This document shows positions 19,846-31,050 of a DNA stretch of 32,413 nucleotides, one piece after another. Source of the stretch: Nitrosomonas sp. GTDB lineage: Bacteria > Pseudomonadota > Gammaproteobacteria > Burkholderiales > Nitrosomonadaceae. Position numbers and translations under genes: made by a program. The notes under the pieces were generated by a model that searched no databases, was not told where the DNA came from, and saw nothing but the letters and a program-made list of their open reading frames with translations. The number at the start of each line of letters is the position of its first letter. The stretch's first letter is position 1. The stretch spans positions 1-32,413 of the forward strand of contig JAJFJH010000333.1 in NCBI GenBank assembly GCA_021774155.1, in the 5' to 3' direction.

Positions 19846-20925
19846 TTAGACTCTATTACTATGCATACCAAAGCTTGATAGTTTCAACAAAACTCTCCGT
19901 GCCATATCTTTTAGCGACACCACTTCATCCACACCACCCGCAGCAATTGCTTCTTTAGGCATACCGAAGACAACACAACTGGCTTCATCCTGGGCTAAAT
20001 TATAGGCGCCAGCGTTATACATTTCAAGCATTCCTTCTGCACCATCCTTACCCATACCAGTCAAAATCACGCCAATTGCATTTTTACCTGCGAAATTTGC
20101 GGCAGAACGGAACAAAACATCCACTGACGGGCGATGACGATTAACCAAATCACCCTGGTTTAATTCAGTCATATAATTTGCTCCACTTCGCTTGAGTAAC
20201 AAATGTGAATGCCCTGGTGCCAGAAATGCATGGCCAGGTAACACACGTTCACCACCCTGAGCCTCAACAACTGATATTCTACAGAGTCTATTTAAGCGAT
20301 CTGCAAATGATTTGGTAAATGCTTCTGGCATATGCTGCGTGATGAGTATGCCAGGGCAATCGGGCGGCAAATTAATCAGAAAGTCCTTAATAGCCTCAGT
20401 ACCACCAGTTGAGGCCCCGACAATAATTAATTTTTCAGTCGATGCGACACGATTAGATATGGATGGCAAAACTGCATCTGCAGTAGAACTTGTAGTTACA
20501 GGTAGTGAAACATGCTGTTTGATTTTCGCAGACTTTGCAATACGAATCTTATCTGCTATTTCATCCCCGTACTCATGTAAGCCATTAGTAATATCAATTT
20601 TAGGTTTTGCAATAAAATCAATTGCGCCTAACTCAAGGGCTTTAAATGTAGTGTCAGAGCCTTTTTCTGTCAATGTAGAAACCATTACAACTGGCATGGG
20701 GCGTAACCGCATTAATTTTTCTAGAAAATCAAGTCCATCCATTCTTGGCATTTCCACATCAAGTGTCAGCACATCAGGATTAAGCTCACGAATCATTTCG
20801 CGCGCTATTAATGGGTCAGCCGCCGCACCTATCGCTTCCATATCACGCTGACTGTTAACTATCTCGGTCAATAACTTTCTAACTAATGCAGAATCATCAA
20901 CAATCAAGACTTTAATTTTTTTCAT
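19846..20925 (-). CDS. cheB: Chemotaxis response regulator protein-glutamate methylesterase CheB
   Basis: Receiver [33 protein letters not shown]; methylesterase [36 protein letters not shown]. Confidence 0.97.
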
Positions 20926-20963
20926 AGTATTATAATATTAAGCCGGGTTACGCAAAATTCATC

Positions 20964-21575
20964 TTAAGAAAATAATTCTATCTCACCACCAGTATTCGTC
21001 TTACGTAAACGTGAACTGTAGTCTTTCTCACGCAGTGAAATCGTATTATTATGAGTTTCCTTCAATTTTTTGACCATGACTTTGCTATCTTTAGGAAAAA
21101 AATAGACTTTCCGTGGATAAATGCCAACCAAATCCTGCGCAATGACCTTAATATTCTCGGTTTTTAAAAATCTCAAAACAAATTCAGAATTACGCTGACC
21201 AACATTTGCAACGGTGAGCCCAGCCATTACATTGCCGCCACCGAATACCTTAGCCTCTAAATTTGCCCGTTTTGCGCCTAATTTCAACAACTGGTTAATC
21301 AATATTTCCATGGCAAACGTACCATAGCGCGCAGACGAACTCATGGGACTACCTGGGTCTCCACCACCGTCAGGTAGCATAAAATGGTTCATCCCTCCGA
21401 TCCCGCTATAACTATCACGGATACAAGCTGCAACACAAGAACCTAGCACTGTTACCAACATCATTCCTTGATTTGTAACAAAATACTCTCCTGGCAACAA
21501 CTTAACTGCTTTACTATTGAAATTTTTATCGAAATAAAAATTAGATGCTATTTGGTCACCGGTAATTTCAGGCAT
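20964..21575 (-). CDS. cheD: Chemoreceptor glutamine deamidase CheD
   Basis: LGSCVAACIRDSYSGIGGMNHFMLPDG, KVFGGGNVM, NVGQRNSEFVLRFL; C-terminal GGEIELFS. Confidence 0.95.
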   Translation of the reverse strand: MPEITGDQIASNFYFDKNFNSKAVKLLPGEYFVTNQGMMLVTVLGSCVAACIRDSYSGIGGMNHFMLPDGGGDPGSPMSSSARYGTFAMEILINQLLKLGAKRANLEAKVFGGGNVMAGLTVANVGQRNSEFVLRFLKTENIKVIAQDLVGIYPRKVYFFPKDSKVMVKKLKETHNNTISLREKDYSSRLRKTNTGGEIELFS

Positions 21576-22443
21576 TTTTCACCCGCTGCTTGTTCGCAAG
21601 CTCATAAACCGTCTTCTCACGCAACTTAAATAAATCAGCGGCATGCTGAAAACTTTCCGAATGACCTGCAAACAACAAACCATCGTTAGCTAACAATGGT
21701 TCAAATTTTTTCAAAATCGTATATTGAGTTAGTTTATCGAAATATATCATTACATTGCGACAAAATATTGCATCAAATCGTCCCCGTATTGACCAATTTT
21801 CTTCTAATAGATTTAATTGTCGGAAGGTAATAAGATTACGAAGTTCTGGGCGTACTCTTGCTGAGCCAGCGTGATTTCCTTTTCCTTTTTGGAAGAATTG
21901 TCTTAGTTTTTCTTTAGGTAACTTATCGAGTTTCTCAAGGGAATAAATACCTTGTTGTGCAGTTGCCAATACATTGGTGTCCAAGTCAGTTGCTAAGATA
22001 TGGACAGGTGGTGTAAATGATCTGAAGAGCTCCACCATCGCCATAGCCATTGAATAAGGCTCTTCACCAGTAGAAGATGCACTACACCAAAGCTGGATTT
22101 TTTGATGATTTTTTTGCTTTTCTATATGCTGTTGTAATATGGGAAAATGATGTTGTTCACGAAAAAATGCAGTAAGGTTAGTTGTTAAAGCATTTGTAAA
22201 TGCTTCCAATTCTACTAAGTCCCCACACTCCAGATAATCGAGATAAACTTTAAAGCTACCAAAACCATTTACACGCAAGCGTCGAACAAGACGACTGTAG
22301 ACCATATTTTGTTTACTCGAAGACAATGAGATACCAGCATGTTTGTATATCAGCTTGCATATGCGCTCAAAATCTTTTGATGTGAAAGTATATTCACGCA
22401 ATTTGTTATCAGAAACTTCGTCTTCAGCCAAATTTATACTCAT
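21568..22443 (-). CDS. cheR: Chemotaxis protein methyltransferase CheR
   Basis: LTTNLTAFFREQHHFPIL, WCSASSTGEEPYSMAM, ILATDLDTNVLATAQQGIY, FDAIFCRNVMIYFD. Start placed at MSINLAEDEV. Confidence 0.96.
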   Translation of the reverse strand: MSINLAEDEVSDNKLREYTFTSKDFERICKLIYKHAGISLSSSKQNMVYSRLVRRLRVNGFGSFKVYLDYLECGDLVELEAFTNALTTNLTAFFREQHHFPILQQHIEKQKNHQKIQLWCSASSTGEEPYSMAMAMVELFRSFTPPVHILATDLDTNVLATAQQGIYSLEKLDKLPKEKLRQFFQKGKGNHAGSARVRPELRNLITFRQLNLLEENWSIRGRFDAIFCRNVMIYFDKLTQYTILKKFEPLLANDGLLFAGHSESFQHAADLFKLREKTVYELANKQRVKNA

Positions 22444-22850
22444 AAAATATCCAGTTGTATTAATGTAGATACCTGCTGTGAATATTTCGGCATCATTTCT
22501 CAAAAACTTGATTTCTATTTAGCTAATAACCAAGTTAGCCTAACGACTATATCTCATACAAATATCACAAGAAAAGTCGGGCGCTCTTTTATGAACCAAT
22601 TATCAGAGAATTTAGTGTCCAATCGAGGACGACAGGATTAACCAATCAAAATATTGGGTAAATGCAGGTATTTAAAAGTTTGTTTCTATAAACAACAAAA
22701 CTTATAAAATTATTTGTAATTGGATGCCATAGATCAGAATTAGCGTTGCTTACAACAATAACAAACAACACGAATTCCTTTCTAATGCATCCAATACACA
22801 AACTTCATCTTAACAATTTACGATTACACCTAAAATTAGAAACTAATATT

Positions 22851-25610
22851 TTAGAACTCCTCCCAATCACTATCGGTGCCAGTCTTTTTAGACTCGAACT
22901 TTGGAGCGGAAAGCTTCTTTACTGCGGATTTATTTGCTGAAGAATTTGCAGGCAATCGTTCTACATTGACTGCACGGTTTGGTCCACGCTTCTCAACCTG
23001 AGGAGACTTGGTTCTATTACTTGTCGCCTCCTTCCTCAAGCTGAAGATTGCCACAGCACTAATCAAACTTCCTGATTGCTCCTGCATGGATTCTGAAGCA
23101 GCAGCAGCTTCTTCTACCAATGCTGCGTTTTGCTGTGTCACTTCATCCATTTGAGTAATTGCCTGATTAACCTGTTCGATTCCCGAACTTTGCTCTTGTG
23201 AAGCAGCGGATATTTCTGCCATAATGTCGGTCACTCGCTTCACAGATGCGACAATCTCATCCATGGTATTGCCTGCTTGATCAACCAGTTCAGTACCTAC
23301 TTCAACTTTATTGACTGAATCACTGATCAGCTCCTTGATTTCTTTAGCCGCTGCAGCAGAACGTTGTGCCAACGTACGCACTTCAGTTGCAACTACCGCG
23401 AAACCACGACCTTGTTCGCCAGCACGAGCCGCTTCTACTGCTGCGTTCAGGGCCAGAATGTTTGTCTGGAATGCGATACCATCAATGACACTAATGATAT
23501 CAACGATTTTCTTGGAACTATCATTGATCGAAGACATCGTGGTGACCACCTCAGCAACCACATTACCGCCTTTGACTGCGATTTCGCTGGCACCAATGGC
23601 AAGTTGGTTAGCCTGTTTGGCATTGTCCGCGTTTTGTTTCACGGTGGAAGTTAGCTCTTCCATACTGGAAGCGGTTTCCTCCAAACTTGAAGCTTGTTGT
23701 TCTGTTCGCTCCGATAAATCATTGTTACCAGAAGAAATCTCTTTCGCTGCCGTATCAATTGCATCAGTGCTTGCACGAATATCACTAATAATTTCGATTA
23801 GCTTACTTACTGTAGAGTTGGTGTCGTCTTTTAATTGTCCGAATATGCCTTTGTATTCTTTAATGATACTTTCGGTCAAATCCCCATGTGACATTGCTGA
23901 CAATACACGGCCAACATCAGCTAAACTAGATGAACAATTATCCATCAAGGAATTAATGCCACTACACAGCTTCTTGATCTCCCCATCCTTACCTTCCAAT
24001 GGAATACGCTGCGACAGATCGCCTTCTTCAGCCACAGAAACAACTTTTAAAGTTTCCTCTACGGCTTGCTTGAGCATCTGCGCTGCTTCGATCTGTTCGG
24101 TAACATCAGTGGCAAATTTCACCACTTTGTAAGGTTTACCGTTTATGTCCATGATTGGATTATAGCTCGCCTGAATCCATACTTCCTTATCGCCCTTGCC
24201 GATGCGCTTATACTGTCCAGCATCAAACTCGCCACGATTAAGTTTTTCCCAGAATTGTCGATACTCCGCACTGCCTGCATAAGCAGGTTCAGTAAACATG
24301 CTGTGATGTTTGCCTTTAATTTCGTCGAGCGAATAATCCAACGTTTGGCAGAAATTATCATTGGCCGTGATAACGGTACCGTCCAATTCGAACTCAATGA
24401 CCGCTTGCGCCTTGTCCACTGCTTTGAGCTGACCCTCATAGTTGGCGTTGCGTAATTTCTCCGCAGTAATGTCGGTAGCAAACTTCACGACCTTGAACGG
24501 CTTACCGTCTACGCCCATGATCGGATTGTAACTGGCCTGAATCCATACTTCCTTGCCACCCTTGCCGATGCGCTTATACTGTGCGGCATCATAGTCGCCG
24601 CGATTAAGTTTTTCCCAGAATTGTCGATACTCCGCGCTGCCTGCATAAGCGGATTCAGTAAACATGCTGTGATGTTTGCCTTTAATTTCGTCAAGCGAAT
24701 AACCCAACGTCTTGCAGAAATTATCATTGGCCGTGATAACGGTACCGTCCAGTTCGAACTCAATGACCGCTTGCGCCGTATCCACCGCCTTCATTTTACC
24801 TTCAAAGTCAGCATCACGTTCCTTTTGCTCGACAAGATGGCTCGTCATTTTCTTGAGTGATTGCAATAACTTACCGACTTCATTAGTTAAACTCGATTCA
24901 ATTCGATTGGAAAGATCACCTGACGCAACAGCATCTGCTACAGAAACAGCTTGATTAAGCGGCCCAACAATTGAGCGTATCACCAGAATACCGATAACGA
25001 AAGCTAACAATACACCTAACACAATGACGGCAATGGTCACTGTTGAAATGGTATTGAAATCACTTTGTGCTGCTGCATATTCTTCAGCGGCAACCCTGCC
25101 TTGCAGATTAAGCAAATCAAACACATCTTTATGTAGAGCCTCGAACTTCGGAGCGGCATCATTCATAGCATTTTCCCGTGCAGCTTCAAAATCGCCAGCA
25201 CTAGCCAATTGAAAGGTACGGTTGCGTGATTCAACATAACTCTTCTCACTAACCATATAACTTTCAGCAAATGCAGCCTCTTCCGGGACCAAATAAGTCG
25301 CCATAAAAGCTTCCCAGATCTTCCGAATTTCGGCATCACGTTGTACAGTATCTGCCATACGTGATTGTGCAATTGCTACATCATTTAAATTAGCTGCAAC
25401 AACCGCATTCATTCGAGCGGCTTGCCAATGATCATTCATAGCTGCCAAATCTACTGCCACTACTGTGCGATCTTCATAAACAGTTTTCAATCCCTGATTG
25501 GATTGGTTTACACCATACAAACCTAATACACCAATACCTACCAGCAAGAGCGACAAAAAACCGACTACAGCCATCAATCGAGACCTAATTGTTAAATTCT
25601 TAAACATCAC
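22851..25610 (-). CDS. Methyl-accepting chemotaxis protein (TM-4HB-TM-HAMP-PAS-PAS-signalling domain)
   Basis: TM/4HB N-terminus, HAMP ([24 protein letters not shown]), two near-identical PAS domains ([20 protein letters not shown]), signalling tip [38 protein letters not shown]-terminal DWEEF. Confidence 0.97.
24081..24800 (-). repeat. Tandem in-frame duplication of a PAS-encoding unit, period 366 bp
   Basis: AACATGCTGTGATGTTTGCCTTTAATTTCGTC occurs at 24295 and 24661 (offset 366 bp = 122 codons). The flanking sequence is also nearly identical. Outer limits are approximate. Confidence 0.85.
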
Positions 25611-25643
25611 AAATCTCCTTTACCCTTTCACTCAAAAAAAGTA

Positions 25644-26153
25644 TTAATTAACCACCTGATCAATTAAGCCCATATCAGCACTACCCATCAACTTCTCAAT
25701 ATCTATCAATATCAACATACGTTCTTCTACTGTTCCCAACCCCATGATGTATTCGGTGTCTATGACAGAACCAAACTCAGGTGTGGCTCTCATTTGACCC
25801 AAATCCAGACTGATAACATCTGAAACGCCGTCAACAACAATACCCATAACTCGTCCCGATACATTCAGAATAATAACCACTGTAAATTGGTCATATTCTG
25901 CACTTCCAAGCTCAAACTTGATCCGCATATCAATAATAGGCACTATGATCCCGCGTAGATTAACAACACCCTTGATAAATTCAGGCGCATTGGCGATTTG
26001 AGTGATTGAGTCATAACCTCTGATTTCTTGGACTTTCAAGATATCCATGCCATATTCTTCACTACCTAGCCGGAATGTAAGGAATTCATTTAATGTTTTT
26101 CCTGCAAGATTTCCTGCTGATTCAGTCGTTTCTACTGCCTGCGTTTGCGACAT
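25644..26153 (-). CDS. cheW: Chemotaxis coupling protein CheW
   Basis: FLTFRLGSEEYGMDILKVQEIRGYDSITQIANAPEFIKGVVNLRGIIVPIIDMR. Confidence 0.96.
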   Translation of the reverse strand: MSQTQAVETTESAGNLAGKTLNEFLTFRLGSEEYGMDILKVQEIRGYDSITQIANAPEFIKGVVNLRGIIVPIIDMRIKFELGSAEYDQFTVVIILNVSGRVMGIVVDGVSDVISLDLGQMRATPEFGSVIDTEYIMGLGTVEERMLILIDIEKLMGSADMGLIDQVVN

Positions 26154-26206: not shown

Positions 26207-28333
26207 TCACACCGATTCTTTATGTGAAGATGTCACAATGACAGCGGAATCTAGAATTAACGCCACTTTACCGTCCCCCATGATGGTGGCACCTGAAACA
26301 CCGTGCACCCGACGATAATTGCTCTCCAGGCTTTTAATAACTACTTGATGCTGACCAATTAATGTATCAACAAGCATTGCAGCTTTCTTTCCTTCGGCTT
26401 CAAGAATAACCAAAATTCCATCATGGATTACTTCAGATGTAGGCTTCAAATTAAAGACTTCATGCAATGCAATCACAGGCAAATATTCACCACGCACCCG
26501 AACTACGCGTCCACGCCCGCTCACTGATTTAATATCTTCTGCAGTTGGTTGTAGTGATTCGATAATATAGGTTAGCGGCACGATGAACATTTGATCACCG
26601 ACACCGACAGACAAGCCATCTAAGATTGCCAGTGTTAGCGGCAAGCGAACTGATATTCGGGTGCCTACACCCAATGCAGACTCAATTTCTACTCGACCAC
26701 CCATTGCACTAATATTACGTTTAACAACGTCCATACCGACACCACGCCCGGAGACATCTGTCACAACGGCGGCTGTTGAAAAACCCGCTTCAAATATCAG
26801 CATCCAGACTTCTGAATCTGGCATTTCGTCATGTACGGGCATCCCACGTTCTTTAGCTTTAGCAAGAATCTTTTCGCGACTGAGGCCAGCACCATCATCA
26901 CCCACTTCAATGACAATACTGCCGCCTTGATGGAAAGCACGCAACGTAATCGTACCTTGAGCAGGTTTGCCTGCAGCTATCCGCACATCAGGCATTTCCA
27001 CACCATGATCAAGACTGTTACGTATTAGGTGTGTTAACGGATCAGCAATTTTTTCAATTAAACCTTTATCTAGTTCAGTACTTTCACCCACTTGCTTTAA
27101 TTCGATTTTCTTATTGAGCTTTGACGCCAAATCACGTACCACACGTGGGTAACGACTAAAAACAAAACTAATCGGCAACATGCGAATTGACATGACCGAT
27201 TCTTGCAAATCTCTGGTATTGCGTTCAAGTTGGTTCATACCGCTTAACAGTTTCTCAAAAATAACCGGATCAACTTCTGAAGCTGTCTGAGCTAACATCG
27301 CCTGAGTAATAACCAGCTCGCCAACAAGATTGATCATCTGGTCGACTTTCTCGATACTGACTCGAATTGAGGATGTTTCAGCAGAATTAGCAGAAGTCTT
27401 GGTAGAAGATGTATTTTTGTTTTTGACTGATACTTTACTACCCCCCACAGGCTGCTTCACTTCATCGTCTTTTGCGCCTGCAGGTGCTGCAGGTGTTCCA
27501 GAGAAGAACCCATAGGGTTTTGTTGTGTTACCCGGCGCATCAGGGAAAAACCCATAAGGCTCTTCTGGCTCGGACTCATCAGCATCAATAGCTGATAATT
27601 GTGCACTCGCGCTATCTTCGGCAAGAGCCTCTGTTTCTATTTTCAGATTAGTTGGGTCCACTACAAATGCAAGTATCTCCCAAACATCCTCTTCAGTTGA
27701 ATCAGTTACTAATCGTAATTTACTACCCGGCTCAGATTCACCAAAAATAAGCTTCTCAAGTTGGCCCATCTCACTTAAGTTAGAAAGTAAATTTTCTCGT
27801 GCCTTTTCATTTAATCCATCATTTGGAAACTCTATGAGAAAAACCATTTTCTCAGTTGCTGGTACTGGCGCATTCTTTTCTGTTAGTTCCGCAACTGGTA
27901 GCGCACTTTTCGTATTCACTTCTGCCGAATCAGTCGAATCAGAAGTTTGCTCTGAAAATTTACTCAATTCTTCACACACAGCAGCAGCAGCAGCTGGATC
28001 CGCCACACCATCTCCACGATGACCTGCTAATTGACCTTTGATAACATCTCCCGCCTTTAGAAAAGCATCTATCATCTCACTACGAACTTCGAGCTCACCT
28101 TTACGCAATTTATCCAGCAGAGTCTCCAACATGTGCGTCATCTCCGTCATATCTGTAAAACCAAATGTGCCCGCTCCTCCTTTAATAGAATGAGCAGCTC
28201 GAAAGATTGCATTCATATCTTCCATATCTGGGGAATTAACATCCAACCCAAGCAAACAGGCCTCCATCTCTGCCAGCAATTCTGAGGATTCCTCAAAAAA
28301 CACCTCATAAAACTGTTCTAGATCACTGCTCAT
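26207..28333 (-). CDS. cheA: Chemotaxis sensor histidine kinase CheA
   Basis: Hpt FRAAHSIKGGAGTFGF, N-box HLIRNSLDHGVE, GDDGAGL, GRGVGMDVV, CheW-like C-terminus. Start placed at MSSDLEQFYEVFFEE. Confidence 0.97.
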   Translation of the reverse strand: MSSDLEQFYEVFFEESSELLAEMEACLLGLDVNSPDMEDMNAIFRAAHSIKGGAGTFGFTDMTEMTHMLETLLDKLRKGELEVRSEMIDAFLKAGDVIKGQLAGHRGDGVADPAAAAAVCEELSKFSEQTSDSTDSAEVNTKSALPVAELTEKNAPVPATEKMVFLIEFPNDGLNEKARENLLSNLSEMGQLEKLIFGESEPGSKLRLVTDSTEEDVWEILAFVVDPTNLKIETEALAEDSASAQLSAIDADESEPEEPYGFFPDAPGNTTKPYGFFSGTPAAPAGAKDDEVKQPVGGSKVSVKNKNTSSTKTSANSAETSSIRVSIEKVDQMINLVGELVITQAMLAQTASEVDPVIFEKLLSGMNQLERNTRDLQESVMSIRMLPISFVFSRYPRVVRDLASKLNKKIELKQVGESTELDKGLIEKIADPLTHLIRNSLDHGVEMPDVRIAAGKPAQGTITLRAFHQGGSIVIEVGDDGAGLSREKILAKAKERGMPVHDEMPDSEVWMLIFEAGFSTAAVVTDVSGRGVGMDVVKRNISAMGGRVEIESALGVGTRISVRLPLTLAILDGLSVGVGDQMFIVPLTYIIESLQPTAEDIKSVSGRGRVVRVRGEYLPVIALHEVFNLKPTSEVIHDGILVILEAEGKKAAMLVDTLIGQHQVVIKSLESNYRRVHGVSGATIMGDGKVALILDSAVIVTSSHKESV

Positions 28334-28483
28334 ATTCAATCCCGTTTCAAAATTTAGCGCCAGACTAACACCCAAAACATCTTTTTGATTGAAAGGTAAA
28401 AGCAAAAAAACATAAGTTAATCCTGAGAATAAGTCCTACAAAACCTTTCTGTTTTACGAACTTCACCTTACGACAACTAGGCA

Positions 28484-28849
28484 TTAACCAATAACTTTTC
28501 CAATAACTTCTAACAGTCTTTTAGGATCAAAAGGTTTAACTAACCAGCCCGTTGCGCCAGCTTCTTTTCCTTTTGCTTTCAAGTCATCACCAGATTCAGT
28601 GGTAAGCATCAAAATTGGAACATATTTATAGTGGGATAATTTCCTCAATAATCCGAGCAATTGCAAACCATCCATACGTGGCATATTAATATCCGTTAAC
28701 ACTAGGTTTACTTGATAAGCATTTGCTTTATCGAGTGCATCTTGACCGTCTACGGCCTCTATCACATCGTAACCGGCACCTTTTAGCGTAAAAGCAACCA
28801 TTTGCCGAATTGAAGCAGAATCATCTACCGCAAGTATCGTTTTAGCCAT
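28484..28849 (-). CDS. cheY: Chemotaxis response regulator CheY
   Basis: ILAVDDSASIRQMVAFTL, LVLTDINMPRMDGLQLL, PILMLTTES, GWLVKPFDPKRLLEVI; single receiver domain. Confidence 0.96.
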   Translation of the reverse strand: MAKTILAVDDSASIRQMVAFTLKGAGYDVIEAVDGQDALDKANAYQVNLVLTDINMPRMDGLQLLGLLRKLSHYKYVPILMLTTESGDDLKAKGKEAGATGWLVKPFDPKRLLEVIGKVIG

Positions 28850-28912: not shown

Positions 28913-29677
28913 CTAAAATAAGTCAACTTCACCTACTCGCATACCTTGCTGCACTACTGGCTTACTTTTATTTTTTTTTCTGACAGAGACGACTGCATCT
29001 GAAATTTCTTGATGAATCTCATCAAGGTTCTTTGTACTAGTTCTATTGATGTTTTGCCTATCAATACGGTGCAGCGACATATTGAGCGCATCAATTTCAT
29101 GTACTGTATGACTTAGTAATTGAGTCACTAAATCTCCAAACTGCAATGAGGTAACTGCCGCCGATAATTCTTGCTCAATTTTTTCTGCAATCTTCATCTG
29201 CCGCTTTAGTAGCTGTAAAACCGGCTCGTTATCTGCGGGTGCCGCCATCTTTTCGATCGCCAGAACCATGCTATGATGAGAACTAGTTAACTTACTAATA
29301 TAGTTGAAATTCACCACAAGATTATTAACTGCATCGCTAACTAATTTATCGGCCTGCCCCAAATCATCTTTGATTCCACAAAAATACTCATCTGCCTCTA
29401 TAGTGCAAATACTTTCTGGAACCAAAATTTGCGGCTCATTTGACGGGCCATCCTTTAGCTTATTATTTTCCAGCTGTGTACCTGAATTTTTATCATGCTC
29501 AACTATTGACAACATCACCAACGCCCAAACCAAACCCACACTAGTTAAGGTTGACAACCCTTGCATAGCTGACCCACTTTTATCTAAAAACCAATAAATC
29601 TGGATTCCAACAAAAATAAGAACTATTCCTGCTAAAGCATTAAACAACCATTTTCTCTTAAGTTCTATTTTTGGCAC
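28913..29677 (-). CDS. Membrane-anchored helical protein in the che cluster, candidate CheZ-like phosphatase
   Basis: Two N-terminal TM segments, helical cytoplasmic region with SLQFGDLVTQLLSHTVHEIDAL, C-terminal VGEVDLF. GTG start preceded by AAGGGGTGG. Confidence 0.8.
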   Translation of the reverse strand: MPKIELKRKWLFNALAGIVLIFVGIQIYWFLDKSGSAMQGLSTLTSVGLVWALVMLSIVEHDKNSGTQLENNKLKDGPSNEPQILVPESICTIEADEYFCGIKDDLGQADKLVSDAVNNLVVNFNYISKLTSSHHSMVLAIEKMAAPADNEPVLQLLKRQMKIAEKIEQELSAAVTSLQFGDLVTQLLSHTVHEIDALNMSLHRIDRQNINRTSTKNLDEIHQEISDAVVSVRKKNKSKPVVQQGMRVGEVDLF

Positions 29678-29814: not shown

Positions 29815-31050
29815 CTAATTTGCAGCATCACCTATGCGGTTAGCCCAACTCAAAGCCTCCAACTCTATATTTGTAAACTCACCTAAGCTTAAAAAGCCCA
29901 TATCAGCCAACATAGTTTGAACTGTTTCAGCTTCATTTTTTTCATTTGCTTCAATTAACCGCAGTTGATCGCCTAAACGCCCCTCTCGAAGCAGCAGCGC
30001 TTGGCTCATATCTTCTGGTATACCAAGTTTATCAACGATACTAGGCATTTCAATACCAAGTAGCGCATCTAATAAGGATAAAATACCGACCATAAATGCT
30101 CGATCCTGATGATTCTTATCATGCGGCCGATCAGCTAAAGCGATTAACTCCATTAGTTTTCCACGTGTAGCTGCGGTCTGCATCAAGGCACTTGACATGC
30201 TCTCGCCTGATTTGCCAGCGGAGTACAGCAGCAACTGTATCCACCGCTGTAGTTGTCTCTTTCCCAGTATCATGATGGCATGCTTGATAGAATTTATCTT
30301 TTGCGGCAGACCCGAAGCCACCGAATTCACCATTCGTAATAGGTTATAGCTTAGACCGGGCTGATGCTTGAACTCCCTCTCTATTTCTTCCGCGTCACTA
30401 TCACCCATCACAAGTGTCAGTAATTTCAGCAAAGACATCTTAGCTGGGTCGGCGCGCTTTCCCGTCATAATTTCTGGCTTAGCGAAGTAATACCCCTGAA
30501 ACATCTGGAAGCCTAATTCCATGCAATATTTTGCCTGCTCATCACTCTCCACTTTCTCTGCTAAAAGTAAAACTGGCCAGCGACTCAATTTCTTAACTAA
30601 GCCAGATATCGCTTCTTTCTCCAACCCAAGCACTTCAACTTTCACCACATTAACAACGGGCAACAACAATTCAACACCATCATTAATCTCCGTGACGTCA
30701 TCAAGAGCAAGTTGATAACCCATTTGCTTCAATTCGATACAGCGCTGCACTATCTCACTTGTGATTTTTACCGTTTCCATGATTTCGAGCACAACATACT
30801 TACTAGGAAGCAAGCAAATCACATCGCTCATTAGTAATTCAGCGTCGATATTAATGAAGCCCCTTTGCTGACCTAACACATTTTGAATGCCTAATTGGCC
30901 GTAGGCATTAACAATTACATTTGCAGTTGCTGACAGGTCATCTTCTACACTAGCTTCTGTTGAATGAGCCAGCCTAAACAACAATTCAAATGCAACTATA
31001 TTCTGATCACGGTCAAGTATTGGCTGCCTTCCAAGAAAAATTTCTTCCAT
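29815..31050 (-). CDS. EAL + HDOD domain protein (degenerate EAL)
   Basis: IFLGRQPILDRDQNIVAFELLFR, YQLALDDVTEINDG, FQGYYFAKPEIM; HDOD LGKRQLQRWIQLLLYS. SD GGAGGAAGG. Confidence 0.88.
   Translation of the reverse strand: MEEIFLGRQPILDRDQNIVAFELLFRLAHSTEASVEDDLSATANVIVNAYGQLGIQNVLGQQRGFINIDAELLMSDVICLLPSKYVVLEIMETVKITSEIVQRCIELKQMGYQLALDDVTEINDGVELLLPVVNVVKVEVLGLEKEAISGLVKKLSRWPVLLLAEKVESDEQAKYCMELGFQMFQGYYFAKPEIMTGKRADPAKMSLLKLLTLVMGDSDAEEIEREFKHQPGLSYNLLRMVNSVASGLPQKINSIKHAIMILGKRQLQRWIQLLLYSAGKSGESMSSALMQTAATRGKLMELIALADRPHDKNHQDRAFMVGILSLLDALLGIEMPSIVDKLGIPEDMSQALLLREGRLGDQLRLIEANEKNEAETVQTMLADMGFLSLGEFTNIELEALSWANRIGDAAN

Follow-up and report, generated by a model that had tools for sequence, protein, structure and literature searches.

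Stage 1 and stage 2 F7 chemosensory systems, whose function is unclear, are widespread and carry their own cheY but lack cheZ. The gene considered here lies immediately upstream of an F7-type cheY in Nitrosomonas sp., in the 32,413-nucleotide stretch of contig JAJFJH010000333.1 that was analysed in full (the window), where a first-pass annotation had proposed a membrane-tethered phosphatase related to or convergent with CheZ. We conclude that the product is probably a dedicated CheY-P phosphatase for the adjoining F7-type CheY, CheZ-like in its action, with catalysis predicted from sequence. The features concerned are all on the minus strand:

19846..26153 (-), cheW, an MCP ending in the CheR tether DWEEF, cheR, cheD and cheB (domain search)
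26207..28405 (-), cheA with a P2 CheY-binding domain (domain search)
28484..28849 (-), cheY of the F7-type cluster, the proposed substrate (Response_reg, 4e-27)
28913..29677 (-), gene for the candidate CheZ-like, probably McpA-derived protein (ORF, 254 aa)
29582..29671 (-), TM helix 1, residues 3-32 (hydrophobic sequence; AF2 helix)
29486..29563 (-), TM helix 2, residues 39-64 (hydrophobic; AF2 helix)
29246..29401 (-), hairpin helix 1, residues 93-144, matching the ascending arm of the McpA-like MCP hairpin (AF2, profile match)
29045..29227 (-), hairpin helix 2, residues 151-211, carrying the active-site-like motif and matching the descending arm (AF2, profile match)
29114..29146 (-), LQFGDLVTQLL motif, residues 178-188, with D182 at 29132-29134 and Q186 at 29120-29122 (conservation; alignment with CheZ D143/Q147)
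28916..28963 (-), C-terminal tail KPVVQQGMRVGEVDLF, residues 239-254, a candidate CheY-binding peptide (tail pattern in 48/48 relatives; likeness to the CheZ tail)

The cluster 3′ of the gene runs cheY-A-W-mcp-R-D-B and is of F7 type; the same gene order has been reported for stage-2 F7 systems (PMC7184735). Only 63 nt separate the gene from the downstream cheY, and cheY lies directly downstream in every Nitrosomonas locus whose contig covers that side. The ORF begins with GTG, with AAGGGG 5′ of the start. In the AF2 model two TM helices are followed by a linker, a hairpin, one further short helix and, last, a tail predicted as disordered, and the soluble part modelled alone as a monomer, with its hairpin, has a pLDDT of 80. 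The two N-terminal TM helices and the helical region upstream of cheY described in the first-pass annotation are thus borne out by the ORF, by AF2 helices at 3-32 and 39-64, and by the hairpin at 93-144/151-211. The TM hairpin has no periplasmic sensor domain, as is also the case in McpA-like relatives (L026, L030 and L031).

The CheZ-like D-x3-Q spacing that had been pointed out in QFGDLVTQLL (residues 179-188) holds up well. F180, D182 and Q186 all lie on the second hairpin helix (AF2 helix 151-211), and D182 and Q186 are profile-aligned with the CheZ active site. Conservation of the pair, which had been set as a check, is complete: among 48 diverse relatives aligned at 35% mean column identity, the only invariant columns are Q179, D182, Q186 and the C-terminal F254. 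QFGDLVxQL hardly varies across 45 Nitrosomonas sequences, and in the relative in which the motif F is substituted (L160) D and Q are still kept. Bare D-x3-Q is frequent, with 12 occurrences across the 5719 residues of the other proteins in the window, whereas F-x-D-x3-Q-[LIVM] occurs 0 times in the same residues. Judged by these comparisons, the D/Q pattern is not due to chance. The C-terminal end is equally constant, reading [DENS][IV][EDTV][LFI]F in all 48 diverse relatives and GEVDLF in the window protein. A distant member of 202 aa (L163:1210-1815, +) has AFQFFDRLSQRLDH and the tail DGEIELF, lies far from its own genome's F7-type cheA, and is possibly a phosphatase for another receiver.

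The layout parallels that of CheZ (E. coli b1881, PF04344), with which the window protein shares a hairpin of helices whose second helix carries F-x-D-x3-Q, a linker, an acidic/hydrophobic tail with a final F, the spacing from D to the C-terminus, and a cheY neighbour. That spacing is 72 residues in the window protein (family median 77) and 68-77 in CheZ; the CheZ tail QVDDLLxSLGF and the window tail GEVDLF are both acidic/hydrophobic and F-terminated, at similar spacing. In CheZ, Gln147 orients water and an acidic residue engages the receiver lysine (PMC3035606), and an AxxFQ motif neighbours the active site (PMC7750401). The latter is partly echoed by [AS]xxF[QE] in the C-terminal module that carries the motif and tail.

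Profiles of this module recover CheZ. In whole genomes without McpA-like genes, the best match of profile A2 was true CheZ (E-values of 8.8e-5 in G036 and 3.9e-4 in G001). The broader profile A5, searched against four Nitrosomonas genomes without the gene, had true CheZ as best match in three (0.002 in G036, 0.0097 in G001, 0.068 in G010) and none in G012, so that whole-genome E-values for CheZ weakened with the larger alignment. In the profile alignments D falls on D143 and Q on Q147. By hhalign, A5 matched 33 CheZ sequences with P=0.0009 over 37 columns and a score of 25.6; the highest score among 60 shuffles of the columns was 20.4, and reversal gave 14.2. The likeness is weak and restricted to about 40 residues around the motif, and being local and weak it does not distinguish remote homology from convergence.

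Searches with the window protein or with narrower inputs recovered far less. Neither Pfam nor NCBIfam gave a CheZ (PF04344) match for the protein at a cutoff of E=1, and single-sequence scans of Pfam, NCBIfam, PHROGs and the PDB (phmmer) gave nothing usable. The full-length, Nitrosomonas-only alignment had no hhalign match to CheZ (P ~0.3), the likeness emerging only with the diverse module; the module profile returned only repeat artefacts from the PDB. Foldseek with both AF2 monomer models found generic helical hairpins and no significant PDB match, CheZ not being among the best 50 listed. The proposed relation to CheZ thus survives for the D/Q site, the tail and the overall layout, and does not extend to a Pfam or NCBIfam family match. 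By these searches the window protein is not a CheZ family member. It differs from CheZ in having no full-length similarity, an MCP-derived hairpin, a TM anchor in some members, and linkage to an F7 rather than an F6 cheY. We give almost no credence to the already disfavoured idea of a canonical CheZ orthologue that has merely diverged: it would account for the motif and tail, but a canonical CheZ coexists in the genome, PF04344 is not matched and the nearest homologues are MCP-derived.

Helical proteins of such composition yield spurious weak matches, and the generic Foldseek hairpins would suit a chance resemblance in a protein of unrelated function, such as scaffolding. We consider this very unlikely, given D and Q invariant in 48 sequences, CheZ as best match in three of four genomes without the gene, and the linkage to and co-occurrence with cheY. 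Among other phosphatases, the remote CheZ proteins of Helicobacter and Azorhizobium resemble the module in being conserved mainly at the D-x3-Q region and the CheY-binding C-terminus, but unlike it are recognised as CheZ over their full length. CheC, CheX and FliY share the proposed role and differ in fold and motif. A 181-aa remote CheZ-like protein with an EFQDLAGQ motif and the tail LSQRDVDSLLKDL was also seen in another family of the order (L152:4529-5071, +), with a weak PF04344 match.

What the first-pass annotation missed is that the protein is likely a tip-less McpA-like receptor, as indicated by architecture, synteny and a profile match to the McpA hairpin arms. A module profile search found the module beside F7 clusters in 107 of 369 sampled gammaproteobacterial genomes, in two recurrent contexts: directly upstream of cheY-cheA, and after cheD-cheB. 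D-x3-Q and the tail are kept in all 28 class loci examined. Most relatives outside Nitrosomonas are ~400 aa long and consist of two N-terminal TM helices, a truncated MCP signalling hairpin (PF00015) and then the module, whose tail reads [DENS][IV]xxF, with 115 residues between the MCP tip and the module D in 26 of 27 measured. An ordinary MCP 'MDxVTQ' site was ruled out as the identity of the motif, since in the window MCP the distance from tip to MDxVTQ is 100 residues, as against 115 for the module D.

From architecture and synteny, rather than a comparison with the CttP and VCA1088 sequences themselves, we infer that the ~400-aa proteins are McpA-like receptors (P. aeruginosa CttP, V. cholerae VCA1088). 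Such receptors (CttP/PA0180, VCA1088) occur only with F7 clusters, which they adjoin; no heptad class can be assigned to them, the array forms without them, and their final pentapeptide has valine at position two (PMC7184735, PMC7534058). Conservation of the McpA C-terminus has been called 'striking' and of 'unclear biological role', and McpA itself puzzling, since it is not needed for array formation (Ortega et al. 2020, PMC7184735). A search of a plasmid collection turned up no named relatives. With these F7 receptors (CttP/McpA/PA0180, VCA1088 and S. oneidensis SO_2117), as identified by architecture and synteny, the window protein shares the sensor-less 2-TM N-terminus, the C-terminal module and tail, and the position beside the F7 che cluster. 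Unlike them, the Nitrosomonas protein (254 or ~190 aa) has no MCP signalling tip, and most of its orthologues have no TM helices either.

The window protein has no MCPsignal (PF00015) match, whereas the ~400-aa relatives have one. The Nitrosomonas profile matches the McpA hairpin weakly N-terminally, before the tip (best i-E 3e-5), and strongly C-terminally, after it. Because both hairpin arms are matched, we read the window protein as a 2-TM anchor plus a hairpin base without the tip, likely a reduced McpA-like protein. TM helices are present in only five of 46 Nitrosomonas orthologues (the window protein and L077-L080), the other 41 being soluble and ~190 aa long; membrane tethering, which had been taken as central, is therefore not a defining property. 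Tip-less versions occur in other families of the order too (L027, L067, L074 and L160), with cheY adjacency, module and tail kept, and some are short (155 aa in L067, 168 aa in L074). Wherever the receptor part is lost, the D/Q hairpin and tail beside cheY are the constant.

We suggest the following mechanism. The antiparallel helical hairpins would presumably dimerise into a four-helix bundle, the second helix of each presenting D182 and Q186. The acidic D182 would engage the conserved lysine of the receiver and Q186 would orient water for attack on the phospho-aspartate, with CheY captured by the flexible linker and the acidic/hydrophobic tail GEVDLF. The protein is likely a reduced McpA-like receptor that keeps the 2-TM anchor and the MCP hairpin base with its module and has lost the array-forming tip. 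Dimerisation, CheY binding and catalysis are thus proposed for the window protein by analogy with CheZ. A binder that captures F7 CheY-P by its tail for sequestration, localisation or delivery, using D and Q only for packing or binding, would fit tail conservation equal to that of the D/Q site and the shortness of some tip-less members (L067, L074). We regard such a non-catalytic role as unlikely, because a plain binder would not be expected to keep both D and Q so strictly, always equally spaced and in profile alignment with the catalytic pair of CheZ.

Gene distribution also bears on a phosphatase role. The first-pass annotation saw no cheZ, cheC or cheX and took signal termination to be otherwise unaccounted for. 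The absence is correct within the window, and CheC (PF04509) and CheX (PF13690) have no match in the window protein or in the genome. However, a canonical cheZ is present elsewhere in the genome, next to a different cheY (PF04344, 232 bits, G000:C473:17017-17622), and the argument from a missing cheZ therefore fails. On our reading each cheY of the genome would have its own CheZ-type partner, cheZ or the window gene, although a single canonical CheZ may be enough for both CheYs. Of the 107 genomes with the module in the class sample, 11 have no CheZ match; nearly complete genomes among these include G128, G142, G205, G259 and G363, and in such genomes the module may be the sole CheZ-type phosphatase.

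Across 37 genomes of the window's genus, treated throughout as Nitrosomonas, the F7 CheY orthologue and the gene occur together in 22 and are both missing from 14, the remaining genome having the gene alone at a contig end. F7-like CheA is kept without F7 cheY and without the gene in eight of the 37. Because genomes with F7-like CheA that lack F7 CheY also lack the gene, it appears tied to CheY and not to the kinase array, although gene and cheY are neighbours and their co-absence may reflect few loss events. Five Nitrosomonas genomes (G001, G009, G012, G017 and G036) keep F7-like CheA and CheZ with F7 cheY and the gene absent, a pattern reminiscent of the takeover of flagellar control published for stage 3, in this case among betaproteobacteria.

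These distributions weigh on a further reading, in which McpA-like proteins are F6-array chemoreceptors and the module acts either as a structural base or as a dock for CheD, CheB or CheW. MCPsignal is recognised in McpA-like proteins, and Shewanella McpA clusters with CheA3/CheW3 and enhances swimming when overproduced (PMC9855816). Nevertheless, the tip is gone while module, tail and cheY adjacency are kept in Nitrosomonas and at least four lineages of the order (L027, L067, L074 and L160), genomes that retain F7 CheA without F7 CheY lack the gene as well, and P. aeruginosa McpA is reported to bind no CheR (PMC7184735). We therefore also doubt that the gene product is such a receptor or adaptor remnant.

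We propose tentatively, at slightly less than even confidence, that the McpA-like 'chemoreceptors' of Gammaproteobacteria in general, CttP/PA0180 and VCA1088 among them, are hybrids of receptor and phosphatase. Their MCP hairpin, reportedly in the F6 array, would carry a CheZ-type site and a CheY-capturing tail at its membrane-proximal base and switch off F7 CheY; loss of the tip in Nitrosomonas would have left a minimal phosphatase. In the open-access literature searched, we found no paper that ascribes CheZ-like activity to McpA-like proteins. The module proposal would assign the McpA C-terminus a definite role that point mutation can probe, and the soluble, tip-less Nitrosomonas proteins of ~190 aa are small enough to serve as a handy minimal system. 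Should it be true, one family of chemoreceptors would have to be re-annotated as phosphatases, and CheZ-type chemistry would have arisen on, or be related to, the MCP hairpin.

Two neighbours of the gene merit mention. The cluster MCP (window 22851-25610, -) is built of a periplasmic 4HB domain, HAMP and a pair of PAS domains, with the DWEEF end; the receptor described for stage 1-2 F7 systems is instead of the cytosolic Aer2 type. An EAL-HDOD protein (window 29815-31050, -) is encoded upstream of the gene in almost every Nitrosomonas locus that extends far enough; its EAL signature looks degenerate (AFELLFR), and it is a possible c-di-GMP-related partner.
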